A stretch of 64,000 nt of DNA, from assembly GCA_947243845.1 (NCBI GenBank), contig CAMXIF010000006.1, positions 1 through 64,000 of the forward strand, given 5' to 3'. Origin of the DNA: an uncultured bacterium. GTDB lineage: Bacteria; Bacillota; Clostridia; Lachnospirales; Lachnospiraceae. The position numbers and the translations under genes are program-made. The notes below the pieces were generated by a model. That model ran no database searches, had not been told where the DNA came from, and saw only the letters and a program-made list of their open reading frames with translations. Positions 803 to 14,966 of this stretch are shown piece by piece (within the stretch, counting starts at the first letter, position 1; each line of letters starts with the position of its first letter).

Positions 803-1963
803 TTACACCTTTTTCCGCACAAACACCGGAATCACATCAAGCGGCGTATCCGCCTCCATCCACTGTCCGCCCGCATATTCTTTTCCGGTAAAACTCTCCG
901 TCCAATCCTCTCCTTTCGGAAGGTAGACACGGCGCTTGTCCTGCCCTGCATAAAGCACCGGCGCCACCAATACATCCGGGCCATACATATACTCATCTTC
1001 CACCTCCCAGCATGACGTGTCCTGGGGATACATATAGAAGAGTGTCCTCATAACCGGCGTTCCTTTCTCATGGGCTTCCTGCATCAGCTCTCTCGTGTAA
1101 GGACGCATCTGTTCCCTGTATTCCATATATTTTTTACAAATCTCATATACCTCTTCCCCATAACTCCACACCTCATTAGCCGCACCAGAACAGCAGGCTG
1201 CTCCGCCGGTGGTGCCATATTGAGGCTGCCTCGGCTCCCTGTCACCATACAGACGCATCACCGGACAGAACGTCCCCCAGGCAAACCATCTGGCAAAAAG
1301 TTCCCTGAACTTCGGATCATCCGGATTGCCGCCGTGGAACCCGCCGATGTCCGTAGTCCACCAGGGAATACCCGCAAGTCCCATGTTCAACCCTGCTGCC
1401 AGCTGATTGCGCATACTCTCAAAGCTGGACGCGATGTCTCCTGACCACACCAAAGCGCCGTACTTCTGGCTTCCGGCCCAGGCGCAGCGAAGCAGGTTGA
1501 CGATATTAGTCTGTCCTTCCCGCTCCATGCCTTCATAGAAAGTCCTGGCATAATCCACCGGATAAGTATTGCCAATCTGCAGGTTCGTGCCACGATGATA
1601 GCGATAGTTGTCAAAGTCATAGACGGTATATTCCGGTTCCGCCTCATCCAGCCAGAATACCTTGATACCCATATCATAATAGTTCTTCTTCGCCTTATTC
1701 CACACATATTCCCTGGCTCCGGGATTCGTGGCGTCATAGTGGATGGTAGCTCCCTGGAAATCCAATCCCACACGGAAGCCTCTCTCTGTGCGGATCAGAT
1801 AACCTTGTTCCAGCATCTCCTCATAATTCTCACAGGTCTTATCCACGGTAGGCCAGATAGATACCATTAATTCTATACCCATCTCCTTCAGTTCCTGTAC
1901 CATAGCCTGCGGATCGGGCCAGTACACCGGGTCAAACTTCCCTCCCCTTTTATTATACGGGTT
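803..1963 (-). pseudogene. C-terminal part of a glycoside hydrolase family 31 (alpha-glucosidase/xylosidase-like) enzyme, 5'-truncated
   Basis: Translation contains VYWPDPQAMV, KVFWLDEAEPEY (GH31 nucleophile region), PWWTTDIGGFHGG, FPVMRLYGDR-like region. In-frame TAG at 1964-1966 and no N-terminal half upstream. Confidence 0.75.
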
Positions 1964-2102
1964 CTATTTGATAAAAAAATGGGAAAAATATAAGATAGGG
2001 TGAAAAATAAAAAGAAAAAGTAATATCTTTTTTTGCATTAACAGAAATGATATACTCAAGCTAAGACGAATATCCCTGACATTTCCAGGAGGTGATCGAC
2101 AA

Positions 2103-3056
2103 ATGACACAAGCCATCTTTTATAGTATAGCAATTGTATTGATACTGCTTCTCCTGCTCGCCTCCTACTGGTGGCATCTAAAAAATCTGCCGCCTGCCTC
2201 GGAAGATGTAATCTACACCATGGATCTGGCACACAGATATTTATTTTGGGCAATCCTCTGCATCATATTTTATGGGGTGATAGCATTTACTGTAAATTTG
2301 ATCATAGAAGAAATGGAGCAATGGATCGTCCTATTTTTAATGTTCTATCTTTTTATGCTCGGAGCAATCTATTTTTGTATTTACGTGATATTCTGGAGAT
2401 GTGTCATCAGAATCGATTCCCTGACTTTTTATACCCCTCTTCTTCCTCCTAAGGAAATAAAATTTCATGAGATCACCTTGGTAAAATATATGGACAACGA
2501 AACACTCTTACATACCCCGAATGAAAAAGTGTTGGTTGGATATCGTAAACATAAAAAAATATTTTTTATTGAGGAAAATACCAAAGGCTTCCCAATATTA
2601 TATGATCTTTTACTGCAATATAAAAAAATGGAACGTATTCCGGTCATAGAAGAATTTGCGGTGACCTGCCCGAGAAGTGACGTCATGCGCGGCGTTTTTT
2701 CCTTTCTGGGATTCGCCATGCTCACTGTGCTCGTCCTATGGAAACATGTCGAACTGGAACTGCCTTACCTCATAATCCTGATTGCCATGACACTGCTATT
2801 CCTATTCGAAATGCTCCGTGTACTGCTGTGGAAAATCACTGTTGATTATCAAAAAATATCCATCAGGAATTTTCTGGGCATAACCAGGACCTACGCACTG
2901 CATGAAATCACCAGGATTGAAGAACGCGGCAGCTATATCCTTCTGTACTCTGCCAAAAAGAAACTGGCTAAAATCGCAAAAGACAGCAATCATTTCCCAT
3001 ATTTGATGGAGCGGTTTCAAAGGGAGGATGTTTTGATACAAAGGATCCTCAAATAA
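2103..3056 (+). CDS. Hypothetical membrane protein
   Basis: 317-aa ORF with strong SD (aggaggtgatcgacaaATG) and several hydrophobic segments. Confidence 0.7.
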   Translation: MTQAIFYSIAIVLILLLLLASYWWHLKNLPPASEDVIYTMDLAHRYLFWAILCIIFYGVIAFTVNLIIEEMEQWIVLFLMFYLFMLGAIYFCIYVIFWRCVIRIDSLTFYTPLLPPKEIKFHEITLVKYMDNETLLHTPNEKVLVGYRKHKKIFFIEENTKGFPILYDLLLQYKKMERIPVIEEFAVTCPRSDVMRGVFSFLGFAMLTVLVLWKHVELELPYLIILIAMTLLFLFEMLRVLLWKITVDYQKISIRNFLGITRTYALHEITRIEERGSYILLYSAKKKLAKIAKDSNHFPYLMERFQREDVLIQRILK

Positions 3057-3120
3057 CATCTATACTAAATGGTATCTGAAAATAGCCTGTCCTTCCAAAA
3101 AGAGCCGGCTGCGCCCGCCC

Positions 3121-4686
3121 TTATTGCCCCTCTGTCAGCGGCGGCTCCAGAATCACCACCGGCTGTTCTAATACAGGCTCTGGCTCCTGCCCCGGTTCTA
3201 ATCCCGGCTCCAATTCCAGCGGAATCTCCGGTAGCGGCTCCGGCTCCGTCCCCGGCAGGTGATAACAGATGACCGGCGTATCCTTTTCCACATAACCATA
3301 AATTTCCTCCGCAACAGAATAAGGCAGATTGATACAGCCATGGGAACCGTTCGTCCTATAAATATCCCTGCCAAACTCACTTCGCCATGTGGCATCATGC
3401 ATCCCTACATTATTATTAAATGGCATCCAAAAAGAAACCGGTGTCCTGTATGTTTCTCCCGTCAGGGTCGCATCCCGTTCTTTATACGTGATCCCATAAA
3501 TTCCATCCGGCGTTTCATTGCCTCTGGCGGGATTACCGGACACAAAATCAGATTCCAGGACACATTCTCCTTCCTGGTATAGAAATAAGTGCTGGGCCGT
3601 CAGGTTAATTTCCACATAAGAATCGCCATAATCCGGTGTCTCATAGGAAGCCGCCGTCTGCCGGTATATGGGAATCCGTTCTCCGCTCTCTCCCCGTTCC
3701 AAAAGCCCGATCAGCGCTTCCGTCTCCTGCCCTACATCCATCCACCAGCCATAATCTCCCTGTTCGATCGTCACTTCTTCCCCATAGCTGGTCATAAATT
3801 TTCTCTTGTGAAAAACAGTGTCATGTTTTCTCCGCAGAGAATTTACATACTCCTTGACCAATTCCGAATCAAGTTCCGCCTGATTCCCTTTGCGTACTAT
3901 CCAGCCCGCTACCGTATCTGCATCCAGAACCTCCCGCTCTGACCCGAATGAATAAGTGACAGCAGTATTCACATAATTCTGAAGCTTTGCATAAGTGTCC
4001 TGCAGACCTACATCCTCCAAAGTGACCCCAGGTTCCTCATAACAGCCGGCTGCTTCCAGATCCACCTGCTCCTGCAAGCCGTCAATCGCTTCCCTGACCG
4101 CTTCTGTGGTCTTTGCGCGGTTCAGACGGTTTCCCCGGTCCTCGGCCACCAGTGCAAAACCACTTCCTGAAACATAATCTCCTATGTAAGCATCCACCGG
4201 TTCCTTCACAAATTCCTTTTGGAAACCGCGCAGAGCGTCTATTTTCTCTTCTAATATCGCTTCTTCATAAAATAACGCTACATCGGTCTCATAAACCGCT
4301 TCCTGCCTTATAAACCACAGGATAGGATTCTGTTCCTGCAGCACAGCTTCCAGAGGTTCTGTGGAAATATAGGCAATGCCAATGTCGCTTCCCAGTATCT
4401 CCTCCTCCAGAACCGTCCCATCAGTCTGACGCTCTATCACCCGCAGAGAATACTGCCCGATCCGTTCCTCCAGTTCCGGGATGCTCATGCCCGACACATC
4501 CACCGCATCAATCAACGTACCATTTAAGAAACAGCTCTGGTAGCGCCCAAGACCGGCTACATAGATGACAAGCAGGATAAGAAACACCGCCGCCGCAGAC
4601 GCTGACAAAATGATGAAAGGCCGTTTTTTATTCGGAATTACATTCTTTTGTTCTGTTTTTTTCCGATGTCTGGGCTGTAATCTCAT
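3121..4686 (-). CDS. L,D-transpeptidase (YkuD domain) with N-terminal TM and peptidoglycan-binding-like region; Pro/Glu-rich C-terminal tail
   Basis: Catalytic motif HGCINLPYSVAEEIY; N-terminal TM anchor; C-term EPEPLPEIPLELEPGLEPGQEPEP. Confidence 0.9.
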   Translation of the reverse strand: MRLQPRHRKKTEQKNVIPNKKRPFIILSASAAAVFLILLVIYVAGLGRYQSCFLNGTLIDAVDVSGMSIPELEERIGQYSLRVIERQTDGTVLEEEILGSDIGIAYISTEPLEAVLQEQNPILWFIRQEAVYETDVALFYEEAILEEKIDALRGFQKEFVKEPVDAYIGDYVSGSGFALVAEDRGNRLNRAKTTEAVREAIDGLQEQVDLEAAGCYEEPGVTLEDVGLQDTYAKLQNYVNTAVTYSFGSEREVLDADTVAGWIVRKGNQAELDSELVKEYVNSLRRKHDTVFHKRKFMTSYGEEVTIEQGDYGWWMDVGQETEALIGLLERGESGERIPIYRQTAASYETPDYGDSYVEINLTAQHLFLYQEGECVLESDFVSGNPARGNETPDGIYGITYKERDATLTGETYRTPVSFWMPFNNNVGMHDATWRSEFGRDIYRTNGSHGCINLPYSVAEEIYGYVEKDTPVICYHLPGTEPEPLPEIPLELEPGLEPGQEPEPVLEQPVVILEPPLTEGQ

Positions 4687-11120: not shown

Positions 11121-11168
11121 ATGCTACCTCCTTGTCAGAGCAGTTTTGATGACTGTTATACTCTCACA

Positions 11169-11336
11169 AATAAGCAGACTCGAAATGCTTCGCATTTCTC
11201 GTTCGCGGTCTCCGTTCCACTCCGGTCCGCGCAGAGCAGACGTCCACTGGACGTCTTGCGCCTCCTCAGAAGCGCACGAAAACAGACTTTCATGCAGGCA
11301 TGAGTCTGTTTTCGTTCACTTCTGACTCTGCTTATT
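11169..11336. repeat. Multi-hairpin intergenic element bounded by terminal inverted repeats, upstream of gltB
   Basis: Outer arms AATAAGCAGA (11169-11178)/TCTGCTTATT (11327-11336); inner hairpins GAAATGC-TTC-GCATTTC (11182-11198), AGACGTCCA-C-TGGACGTCT (11238-11256), and a long one containing ACGAAAACAGACT...AGTCTGTTTTCGT (11266-11325). Confidence 0.8.
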
Positions 11337-11347
11337 CGCGCAAATAG

Positions 11348-11384
11348 AAAAACGCAAAGAAGGCATCTAGCGCTCCTTTGCGTT
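11348..11384 (-). terminator. Terminator-like hairpin in the inferred gltB leader
   Basis: Minus strand AACGCAAAGgagcgctagatgccttCTTTGCGTTTTTC: 9-bp stem followed by T-run. Confidence 0.5.
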
Positions 11385-11472: not shown

Positions 11473-11501
11473 TTGACCAATCACATAATATGGGGTACGA
11501 T
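11473..11501 (+). promoter_or_regulatory. Sigma-A-like promoter upstream of the MutS2-like gene leader
   Basis: TTGACC (11473-11478), 17-nt spacer, TACGAT (11496-11501). Confidence 0.6.
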
Positions 11502-11527
11502 AGAGAAAAAGTTTCAGGAGAATCTGT

Positions 11528-11566
11528 ATGTTAAGTGTAATTGTAATGGAGAATAGTGCAAAATAA
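11528..11566 (+). CDS. Candidate 12-aa leader peptide MLSVIVMENSAK
   Basis: ATG preceded by CAGGAG with suitable spacing, terminated by TAA, located between promoter and terminator-like hairpins. Confidence 0.5.
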   Translation: MLSVIVMENSAK

Positions 11567-11689
11567 ATATTGCCTGGGTGGTTTTTGGTTTACGCTCAAA
11601 GTCTGCCCATTTGCCGGCAACCGATGCTGCCAGCGTTTTCGCCTTACATTTGCTTAATATTATGGTATCTATTTCCAGGAAGGATATTG

Positions 11690-11716
11690 GCATGACTGTA
11701 TGGTCATGCTGTTTTT
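11690..11716 (+). terminator. Terminator-like hairpin 1 in the MutS2-like gene leader
   Basis: GCATGAC-tgtatg-GTCATGC followed by TGTTTTT. Confidence 0.6.
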
Positions 11717-11800
11717 ATGGTATTAGGAAGAAACAAATTTACTCTTTTATTCCTTCATGGCATAACTATATCGTACAGAATAATCCATATAACGATTACA

Positions 11801-11845
11801 AGACCATAGTATCTTAATGCACTTAAGGTATCTATGGTCTTTTTA
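11801..11845 (+). terminator. Terminator-like hairpin 2 in the MutS2-like gene leader
   Basis: AGACCATAGTATCTTAA-tgcac-TTAAGGTATCTATGGTCT followed by TTTT, ~90 bp before the MutS2-like ATG. Confidence 0.7.
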
Positions 11846-11934
11846 CATGTAGGGCGATGCTGCCTGAATTTATTTTGCGGCTATGCTACACGGAATCAGT
11901 GCAAAAGAAGCAGAGAAAGGAATGTATAATTAAA

Positions 11935-13842
11935 ATGAATATTGAAAGACAGATTGAATTTGACAAAATAAAAGACATATGGGCCGATTGCGCAGTCACA
12001 GACCAGGCCAAAGAGAAAATCCATGAAGTTTCCATATGCCTTTCCGAAACCGAATTAAGAAAACAACTAAAGAATACCACAGACGCCAGGAACCTGATTG
12101 AAAAACTGGGGACGCCGCCCCTGCAGAATCTCTCTGAAATAAGGGACATCTTATTGATTGCCCAAAAGGGGGACTGTCTGACACCCTATCAGTTAGAACG
12201 GGTGGAAATCATTTTAGTCGTGATCAGACGGCTGAAAGCGTATTTGGGAAGAGGAAAGATGTATTCTAATTCCCTGGCTTATTATGATGAAAACCTGGAT
12301 GATATCCCAGAGTTACACGAAGAAATATGCAGCAAAATCAGGAATGGAGCTGTCGATGACTACGCCACCAAAGAATTGGGGCAGATTAGGAACCAAATCA
12401 TCAAGTGCGAGGAGCAGATGAAACAGAAGGCGGAACAAATCCTGCGTTCTCATAAGGACTGCATGGCAGACAGCTATTGTACTTATAGGAACGGGCGGAT
12501 ATGTCTTCCTGTGAAAAAGGAATACAAACTGAAGATAACCGGCAGTGTCATCGATAAATCTTCTACCGGCAGCACATTGTTTATAGAACCGTCCGGTGTT
12601 TCGAAATATTATGAAGAACTACAGCTTTTAAAAATCGGGGAAGAAAATGAAGTCCATCGTATTTTATACACCTTATCCGCTTTCGTATCCGCCTCAATCC
12701 CTGTCCTGCATGAGGATCTTAGTATGATCGAAAAGCTGGATTTCATCTTTTCCAAAGGCAAATTGAGCCTGGTCATGGATGCGGTCGAACCAACGATCAA
12801 TACGGAACGAAAAATTACCCTGACGCAGGCGCGTCACCCGCTGATGGACAAAGCACTGGCAGTACCGCTGCAATTTGCCATAGGCGGCGAGATCCAGGGG
12901 ATTGTCATCACCGGCCCTAACACAGGCGGCAAGACTATTGCTATCAAAACAGTTATGTTAACTTGCATCATGGCGCAGTGCGGCATGCATGTTACTTGTA
13001 AACAAGCCGATATCTGCATGAACAGTTCCTATTTATGCGATATCGGTGATGGACAGAACCTCGCTGAAAATCTATCTACCTTTTCCGCACACATAACCAA
13101 TGTGCTGGAAGTCCTGCGGGAAGCCAATCAGGATAGCCTGGTCGTTATGGATGAGCTGGGCTCCGGGACAGATCCCACGGAAGGTATGGGAATCGCCATC
13201 GCAATATTGGAAGAGCTTCGAAAAAGCGGCGCTTTATTTCTGGCCACAACTCACTATCCGGAAGTAAAAGAATACGCCGCCAGAACAGAGTTTATCGTCA
13301 ATGCCAGAATGACCTTTGATAAAAAGACGCTCAGCCCCACATACCAGATGGTGATCGGAGAAGCCGGGGAAAGCTGTGCCTTTTATATCGCTGACAGGCT
13401 GGGTATGCCCAATGAAATGTTAAGAGCCGCAATCCGCGCCGCATATGGCGAAGATACCGCCGCCACGTATCAATTCCAGACGCCTGAAAGCACTATGGTA
13501 AAGAAAACCGGCGCCAGACTCTCCAAAACAAAAAAGGGAAATCAACAAGCGGCTCGCAGCGTCAAATACCAGATTGGCGACAGCGTCATGGTCTATCCAG
13601 AGAAAAAGATTGGGATTGTATGTGCCCCAATCAATGAAAAGGGCGTATTAAGAGTACAGCTGCCAAATAAAAAAATCTGGATCAATCATAAACGCGTAAA
13701 GCTGCACGTGGCGGCAACAGAACTTTATCCGGAAGACTATGATTTTTCCATCCTCTTTGATACAGTGGAAAACAGGAAAAAAAGGCACGACATGCAGCGA
13801 AAATATACTGATGCCGTGCTTGAAAGCAATGAAATAATCTAG
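11935..13842 (+). CDS. MutS2-like ATPase (MutS family) with KOW-like C-terminal region and no visible Smr domain
   Basis: Walker A TGPNTGGKTIAIKTVML, DELGSGTDPTEGMGIAIAILEELR, ATTHYPEVKEYA. ATG at 11935 with upstream AGAAAGGA chosen over the tracked start at 11857; protein ends ~635 aa. Confidence 0.85.
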   Translation: MNIERQIEFDKIKDIWADCAVTDQAKEKIHEVSICLSETELRKQLKNTTDARNLIEKLGTPPLQNLSEIRDILLIAQKGDCLTPYQLERVEIILVVIRRLKAYLGRGKMYSNSLAYYDENLDDIPELHEEICSKIRNGAVDDYATKELGQIRNQIIKCEEQMKQKAEQILRSHKDCMADSYCTYRNGRICLPVKKEYKLKITGSVIDKSSTGSTLFIEPSGVSKYYEELQLLKIGEENEVHRILYTLSAFVSASIPVLHEDLSMIEKLDFIFSKGKLSLVMDAVEPTINTERKITLTQARHPLMDKALAVPLQFAIGGEIQGIVITGPNTGGKTIAIKTVMLTCIMAQCGMHVTCKQADICMNSSYLCDIGDGQNLAENLSTFSAHITNVLEVLREANQDSLVVMDELGSGTDPTEGMGIAIAILEELRKSGALFLATTHYPEVKEYAARTEFIVNARMTFDKKTLSPTYQMVIGEAGESCAFYIADRLGMPNEMLRAAIRAAYGEDTAATYQFQTPESTMVKKTGARLSKTKKGNQQAARSVKYQIGDSVMVYPEKKIGIVCAPINEKGVLRVQLPNKKIWINHKRVKLHVAATELYPEDYDFSILFDTVENRKKRHDMQRKYTDAVLESNEII

Positions 13843-14069: not shown

Positions 14070-14966
14070 TCAATCCCGTTTCACGGGCACCCACAACTCA
14101 CAGAACAGACCGTTTTCCGCATGTTCATAATAAATTTCATAGTCGGTATCCTCTGTCTGCGTATAACCCGTCTGCGGGACAAACTCCTTAAAAAACTTGC
14201 TCCAGGTTTCACCCAGACAATCACCGTCAGAACCAAAGCATTTAAACACCGCATAATCAACAGGTTCTGTCTCCCAGATGGAATAACCGTTCTTGAGAAA
14301 CTGTTCCAGTTTAGCCTCATCCGTATCCTGATCAATCCTGACACCGATTCCATAATTGAAATGCGTCTCTCCGTCTCTCAGCGGATGACACAGGCCGAAC
14401 AGATCCCTTTTTCCTTCCGCACGCAGCATTTTCATAGGCTCGATAAGATTTTTATCATAACACTCCGTCCAGAAATCGGGGATGCTGTGATCATCGTCAT
14501 CATTGATGATCTCATTCGGAAATGCCCTTACCATGGCGATAAATCTCTCACTCTCTCTGTGCTCAATTCTGTAATCCATAACACTACCACCTTCCAGTAT
14601 GATTTTGATGGCAAGCGGATTAAACAAATGAAGTTTTGTGCCTTTTTGCTTTGCCTGTCTGGGCGTTGCACCATGAAACCTTGAAAACGCTTTGGAAAAA
14701 CTTTCCGGCGACTCATAGCCATACTTATACGCAGCTTCAATCACTGAGATATCCGTTGTCTGCAATTCTCTGGCCGCCAGTGTAAGACGTCTTTTTCTAA
14801 TATATTCATTAGCCGTCATGCCTGTAACAAAACTGAACGTCCGATGAAAGTTATAGCTCGACATATGGACACTTTTGGCAACCTCGGCATAACTTATGTC
14901 TTCGCAGATATGTTCTTCCATATAGCATATCGCCTGCTGCATAAGCTGTATCGACATTTGTTCCAT
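14070..14966 (-). CDS. AraC-family transcriptional regulator with GyrI-like effector domain
   Basis: N-term AraC HTH (YNFHRTFSFVTGMTANEYIRKRRLTLAARELQTT...YGYESPESFSKAFSRFHGATPRQAK) plus C-term effector-like domain. Confidence 0.9.
   Translation of the reverse strand: MEQMSIQLMQQAICYMEEHICEDISYAEVAKSVHMSSYNFHRTFSFVTGMTANEYIRKRRLTLAARELQTTDISVIEAAYKYGYESPESFSKAFSRFHGATPRQAKQKGTKLHLFNPLAIKIILEGGSVMDYRIEHRESERFIAMVRAFPNEIINDDDDHSIPDFWTECYDKNLIEPMKMLRAEGKRDLFGLCHPLRDGETHFNYGIGVRIDQDTDEAKLEQFLKNGYSIWETEPVDYAVFKCFGSDGDCLGETWSKFFKEFVPQTGYTQTEDTDYEIYYEHAENGLFCELWVPVKRD

Follow-up and report, generated by a model that had tools for sequence, protein, structure and literature searches.

The locus and the parts of its leader

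The window, which here means the whole 64,000-nt stretch of DNA that was analysed, carries on its forward strand a gene for a 635-aa protein of the MutS2 family (11935-13842), preceded by its own Shine-Dalgarno sequence (11916-11921) and by an elaborate leader. Direct reading places a sigma-A promoter at 11473-11501, with the -35 box TTGACC at 11473-11478, a 17-nt spacer and the -10 box TACGAT at 11496-11501; relatives have the consensus TTGACA..TATAAT at the equivalent place. A Shine-Dalgarno sequence AGGAGA (11516-11521; family consensus AGGAGG) and a leader ORF of 12 codons and a stop, MLSVIVMENSAK, with its ATG at 11528, follow (11528-11566). A small hairpin, P0, surrounds the leader stop codon (11558-11573), and a second hairpin, P2 (11613-11634), lies between the ORF and a segment complementary to it, the anti-leader AGCGTTTTCGCCTTACATTTGCTTAATATT (11632-11661). 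Two terminators complete the array: T1, the hairpin TGGCATGACTGTATGGTCATGCTG with TTTTT (11688-11716, stem 11688-11711), seen in the terminator scan, in relatives and by covariation, and T2, the hairpin GACCATAGTATC..GGTATCTATGGTC with TTTTT (11802-11845), seen by folding and in relatives. Promoter, Shine-Dalgarno sequence, 12-codon ORF, both hairpin and T-run sites and the gene start at 11935 were all read where the initial annotation had placed them.

Statistics on the single sequence are modest, and it is because of its conservation in relatives that the leader can be placed beyond chance. Promoter-like sites number 9 against 5.6 in shuffled sequences, a modest excess, and terminator-like sites 7 against 3.0, the scan listing T1 and not T2; the fold of 11508-11850 has a z of -2.9 relative to shuffles. 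A comparison of the whole window with Rfam gave no match above the gathering score. The covariance model built for the leader family, R1, matches 11515-11719 with 208 bits, a score obtained by a copy that belongs to the model's own 55 training sequences.

The surroundings deserve brief mention. Between gltB and the leader lies a large imperfect palindrome (11165-11350), pieces of which recur in the genome with 82-97% identity over 25-60 nt, and which looks like a REP/MITE-type repeat. On the other side, and convergent with the mutS2-family gene, is a gene on the reverse strand (14070-14966) for an AraC-type regulator whose C-terminal effector part looks GyrI-like and which could be a drug sensor.

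A second MutS2 that lacks the Smr domain

The assignment of the gene as MutS2-like, made earlier from the sequence alone, is borne out by its family matches, its motifs and its predicted fold. The protein matches TIGR01069 with an E value of 1e-160, only to position 511 of the 790 positions of that model, and also matches PF00488; both Walker motifs, A (GPNTGGKT) and B (MDELGSGTDP), are intact, and 33 homologues show no variation in them. Its AlphaFold model, with a mean pLDDT of 84.5, superposes on disome-bound Bacillus subtilis MutS2 (7qv3) with TM-scores of 0.71/0.76. Neither an Smr domain in the C-terminus nor the mismatch and connector domains of MutS were found in the 635-aa protein. In the full model a five-stranded barrel (residues ~548-592) precedes a poorly predicted tail; its match to the canonical KOW/MSSS domain is weak (hhalign E 9e-4 at 23% probability, with no Pfam match), and the C-terminal domain modelled alone reached a pLDDT of 39.5 and was discarded. 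The modelled barrel is probably KOW/MSSS-like, an identity that we regard as suggestive.

The same genome encodes a full-length MutS2 of 807 aa (G000:C20) as the housekeeping homologue, as well as a MutS1-like gene, so that the 635-aa protein is to be seen as a second, specialised MutS2. Such Smr-less proteins occur in only about one-fifth of the genera in a sample of 200 Lachnospiraceae genomes, and in a phylogenetic tree the full-length MutS2 sequences form one group (support 100/99) with all Smr-less sequences outside it. In B. subtilis, MutS2 splits stalled ribosomes and its ATPase is essential; cells without it become more sensitive to chloramphenicol, tetracycline and erythromycin, and mutations in the SMR domain have only a modest effect on survival in erythromycin (PMC10897456). 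Taken together with the stall-sensing leader proposed below, these data make an inducible factor for ribosome rescue or resistance the best reading of the Smr-less MutS2. As a separate observation, tblastn revealed in-frame TAG or TGA stops in three mutS2 homologues (L004, L008 and L024, from genomes G086, G009 and G003), which could be pseudogenes or sequencing errors.

Conservation of the leader in Lachnospiraceae

The leader loci examined comprised 80 from one scan and 30 from another, and leader models (HMM and CM) gave matches upstream of most relatives. Across the 80 Lachnospiraceae loci of the first scan, the peptide has the consensus MLSVIVMEKIAK and a length of 12 codons in 72, the remainder having 10, 11 or 14; the ORF is never out of frame, its insertions and deletions comprise whole codons only, and the peptide ends in Ala-(Lys/Asn)-stop in 62 of 69 cases. 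This retention of frame and Shine-Dalgarno sequence argues that the leader ORF is translated. Close and distant copies have in common the promoter, the Shine-Dalgarno sequence, the ORF, a GGG..CCC region, P2, the core CGCCTTACAATTGCTTAATATTGTGG, T1 and T2. Six divergent leaders (L014, L015, L019, L021, L022 and L032) show the same architecture in other letters, P0 included.

With model R1, the leader was detected in 54 of 397 Lachnospiraceae genomes, and a class-wide CM search of a sample indicates that it is essentially confined to that family. Carriers available in culture include Parablautia muri D42-62, Acetivibrio ethanolgignens and Lachnospiraceae bacterium 3-1. Some relatives lack T1 or T2, one locus (L052) has no detectable leader, and a BLAST search of the leader against plasmids returned no match.

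Pairing between the leader ORF and the anti-leader

The anti-leader is complementary to nearly the whole length of the leader ORF. ORFs pair with their own anti-leaders at -20.85 kcal/mol and with swapped partners at -18.83 kcal/mol (z -8.0; 0 of 20000 permutations), and the preference for own partners holds in the divergent subset (z -5.9; 0 of 20000 permutations). Over the 28 pairs of the helix, 87.5% of alignment cells are paired and 12 pairs have changes on both sides, a result equalled in none of 500 shuffles; every control in which the two strands were slid against each other lowered pairing to 35-52%. Compensatory changes are also present in all five main pairs of P2 (0 of 500 shuffles) and at six pairs of the 9-bp T1 stem, 97% of whose cells are paired. 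P0 is paired in 87.6% of cells with few double changes, which is weak evidence of covariation. The comparative check called for by the initial annotation thus comes out in favour of the leader: ORF, T1, T2, P2 and the ORF:anti-leader helix are conserved, and the last of these, P2 and T1 covary.

Terminators and possible antitermination

At least one terminator lies within 300 nt upstream of 90 of 104 Smr-less mutS2 genes; among 20 genes for full-length MutS2 from Lachnospiraceae the number is 4. Three loci (L027, L028 and L030) were scored in the opposite orientation in this count, and two of them, L027 and L028, do have terminators. Two or more terminators precede 58 of the 104 Smr-less genes and none of the 20 full-length ones, and a T2-equivalent hairpin could be classified in 52 of 74 leaders.

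How a freed anti-leader might prevent termination is less plainly written in the sequence. A mutually exclusive antiterminator, for which folding had been suggested as a check, finds weak support at T2, where pairing of the anti-leader with the 5' arm is modest (z -1.3), and none at T1, where it stays at the level of shuffles (mean z -0.27); neither pairing gave an own-versus-swapped signal. A domino arrangement in which the freed 3' arm of T1 pairs with the 5' arm of T2 was also considered and rejected, the 7 bp in question (GACCATA/TATGGTC in the window) being present and not significant (z -1.6). At equilibrium both terminators keep their folds, whether or not a ribosome occupies the ORF, in 12 of the 13 cases listed, so that any switching would have to be kinetic. 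When the ORF was masked, sequestration of the 5' arm of T1, prior to synthesis of the 3' arm, rose on average from 0.51 to 0.66, with a gain of more than 0.2 in 21 of 52 leaders, against 0.54 and 6 leaders when a neighbouring block was masked as a control; in the window leader, masking raised sequestration from 0.30 to 0.54 for T1 and from 0.35 to 0.78 for T2. Any antitermination would probably be kinetic.

In five leaders (L033, L038, L043, L045 and L079), the stretch between T1 and T2 contains variable inserts, several of them palindromes ending in TAGGAAA..TTTCCTA, and in L033 the insert stands in place of T1. These are possibly small repeat elements that have landed in the leader.

A second copy of the leader and its other client genes

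The genome contains the leader a second time, at G000:C12:48265-48470, where R1 scores 182 bits. This copy encodes the peptide MLIVVVTEKIAK and is equipped with a T1 and a T2 of its own, and downstream of it lie an ABC ATPase gene and two PF06182 permease genes, that is, an ABC-2 exporter operon. In other genomes the leader precedes the equivalent exporter as well as exporter-mutS2 operons. Many Smr-less mutS2 genes that have no adjacent leader stand directly behind an ABC2_membrane_6 permease gene with the leader further upstream; shared sequence places the leader upstream of exporter-mutS2 in five genomes (L053, L071, L092, L094 and L110), and in three further genomes it lies ahead of the exporter ATPase gene. 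Other clients are GNAT acetyltransferase genes (L161 and L172) and a methyltransferase-mutS2 pair (L175). Judged from their annotation, the exporter, GNAT and methyltransferase clients would fit a response to ribosome-targeting compounds, and the presence of one leader before both a mutS2 paralogue and an exporter suggests that gut bacteria possess an antibiotic-response regulon which has so far escaped notice. In the genome of the window (locus L143), a MATE-efflux-like ORF (1082-2440, reverse strand) and a gene for a YeiL/CRP-like regulator (2484-3125, forward strand) adjoin the leader-led ABC-2 exporter.

Parallel leaders in other Bacillota

Smr-less MutS2 proteins with leaders of their own are also encoded in Cytobacillus, Paenibacillus, Acetoanaerobium, the pSOL1 plasmid of C. 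acetobutylicum ATCC 824 (gene CA_RS19705) and records labelled Enterococcus and Listeria, among others, and nearly all of these genes have terminators. The 14 leaders that could be read have a uORF of 3-7 codons (MSVSVLN, MLGVVLN, MSEVVLN, VSVVGI and others) and a downstream complement to it. Own partners were preferred over swapped ones (26 of 20000 permutations), a signal that is not significant singly in L187, L188 and L192. These leaders share only the uORF/anti-leader principle with that of the Lachnospiraceae.

A proposed attenuator conditional on stalled ribosomes

We consider it likely that the leader is a ribosome-mediated transcription attenuator through which a reserve factor for ribosome rescue is made only when ribosomes stall. 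In the absence of a stall, a ribosome would complete the 12-codon ORF and depart, the ORF RNA would pair with the anti-leader, and RNA polymerase would halt at T1 or, failing that, at T2. Were a ribosome to be arrested or delayed on the ORF, for instance by a drug, it would cover the ORF and leave the anti-leader free to pair with downstream sequence before T1 and T2 are complete, permitting readthrough into mutS2. The product, an Smr-less MutS2 ATPase, may then act like B. subtilis MutS2 and split ribosomes that have stalled or collided, and the ABC-2 exporter operon, through its copy of the leader, would be induced by that stall event as well. The reading is based on the conserved leader, the in-frame uORF, the covariation of the ORF:anti-leader helix, P2 and T1, the terminators, the second copy and the protein family, and from these we infer the order of events, the antitermination, the inducer and the activity of the protein. 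The uORF/terminator attenuator of the initial annotation is thus supported, and the case reaches further than that annotation did, to a second copy before an exporter and to parallel leaders in other Bacillota. Candidate stall positions are Met7, with Glu8 in the A site, and Lys12 at the stop. As to the inducer, the SVIVME stretch of the peptide is similar to the region of the ErmAL1 macrolide leader where stalling occurs, and chloramphenicol or linezolid favours contexts such as a penultimate Ala; these likenesses could guide a drug screen and do not count as evidence.

The signal could also be the general translation rate or amino-acid supply instead of drugs, the MutS2 paralogue then dealing with collisions caused by starvation or stress, which we hold to be unlikely and yet worth keeping in mind, since the helix spans the whole ORF, so that any slow ribosome there would act, and since the RLR macrolide motif was not found in the peptide. 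Against this, in none of the leaders examined does a single amino acid have its codons in a run, which makes starvation for a particular amino acid an improbable signal, and the linked genes encode an exporter, a GNAT acetyltransferase and a methyltransferase and not biosynthetic enzymes. Moreover, the Ala-(Lys/Asn)-stop end is kept constant while codons and hairpin letters vary, which suggests that the peptide itself matters.

Somewhat more doubtful is that regulation operates as proposed while the substrates of the Smr-less MutS2 are nucleic acids, in recombination, and not ribosomes. The earliest descriptions of MutS2 proteins were as nucleases that counteract recombination, and the Smr domain, which takes part in collision recognition in B. 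subtilis (PMC10897456), is absent here. However, the protein also lacks the mismatch and connector domains of MutS, retains the ATPase and the probable KOW domain, and is encoded under a translation-sensing leader, and SMR mutations rendered B. subtilis only modestly sensitive to erythromycin (PMC10897456).

It is very improbable that T1 and T2 are ordinary terminators or insulators and the mini-ORF incidental, with mutS2 expressed by basal readthrough or from an internal promoter. Promoter-like sites do occur near 11757 and 11942, the single-sequence statistics are weak and both terminators remain stable in equilibrium folding; yet the in-frame ORF and its Shine-Dalgarno sequence are conserved with a promoter just ahead of them, the ORF:anti-leader helix covaries, full-length mutS2 genes are without such arrays and the leader is reused before unrelated genes. 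The leader could instead be a riboswitch with a ligand, or bind a protein, and the ORF be no more than a part of the RNA structure; this would agree with the long conserved non-coding core and the covarying P2 but has hardly any likelihood, given the lack of an Rfam match, the retention of Shine-Dalgarno sequence, start, stop and frame, the involvement of the ORF itself in the conserved pairing, and the parallels in other Bacillota that have only the uORF/anti-leader principle in common.

Relation to known systems

For the attenuator reading, the closest precedent is hflXr of Listeria monocytogenes, whose leader rli80 combines a promoter, a 14-codon uORF and a terminator and acts by ribosome-dependent transcription attenuation (PMC6310831). 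In both systems a paralogue of a housekeeping ribosome-splitting factor lies behind a promoter, a short uORF and a terminator, and the analogy with hflXr drawn in the initial annotation is strengthened by the 807-aa housekeeping MutS2 and the leader-bearing paralogue found together in one genome. In contrast to hflXr, the enzyme here is a MutS2 ATPase and not an HflX GTPase, the 12-codon peptide has no RLR motif, there are usually two terminators, the pairing of ORF and anti-leader is full-length, and the leader is reused before an exporter; the likeness is one known from sequence, with inducibility predicted. The leaders of ARE ABC-F genes in Bacillota (vmlR, PMC9226507; cplR, PMC10201436; msrD, PMC10314930) similarly place a uORF and a terminator before a ribosome-acting ATPase, whereas the MutS-type ATPase here is expected to split ribosomes rather than expel drug, and its leader is unrelated in sequence to any Rfam family.

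With B. subtilis MutS2 (7qv3; PMC10897456), the 635-aa protein shares the core/lever, clamp and ATPase fold and the intact Walker motifs, but it is shorter by ~150 residues, lacks the Smr domain and the long stretch between ATPase and KOW, and has its own C-terminal tail and an attenuator in front. The second leader copy recalls the bmrCD attenuator of B. subtilis, where a drug-exporter operon is under ribosome-mediated attenuation (PMC4191407), although the leader is unrelated and one leader family here serves both an exporter and a ribosome factor. No report of a MutS2 leader, or of an Smr-less MutS2 under attenuation, was found in the openly accessible literature.

We see an even chance that Smr-less MutS2 proteins constitute a class, so far overlooked, of inducible factors that split ribosomes in response to antibiotics across Bacillota, with uORF attenuators arising alongside, and that reuse of the leader in Lachnospiraceae has built a regulon of exporter, acetyltransferase and methyltransferase genes that acts in cis only, with no protein regulator. 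HflXr has established that duplication of a ribosome-splitting factor can give rise to a resistance gene under inducible control, and, if true, the present reading would put a second, unrelated enzyme family on the same route in abundant gut bacteria. Model R1 could serve as a sequence handle for further ribosome-stress genes of unknown function, while the leader shared with the exporter offers a testable regulon and, being defined, lends itself to cloning in a reporter. For such reporter work nature provides a minimal version, the strongly shortened leader before the GNAT gene of L172 (peptide MLTVIVIEQSAIA), in which the ORF, the anti-leader-like segment GCAATTGCTTAAT and the terminators are all compressed.
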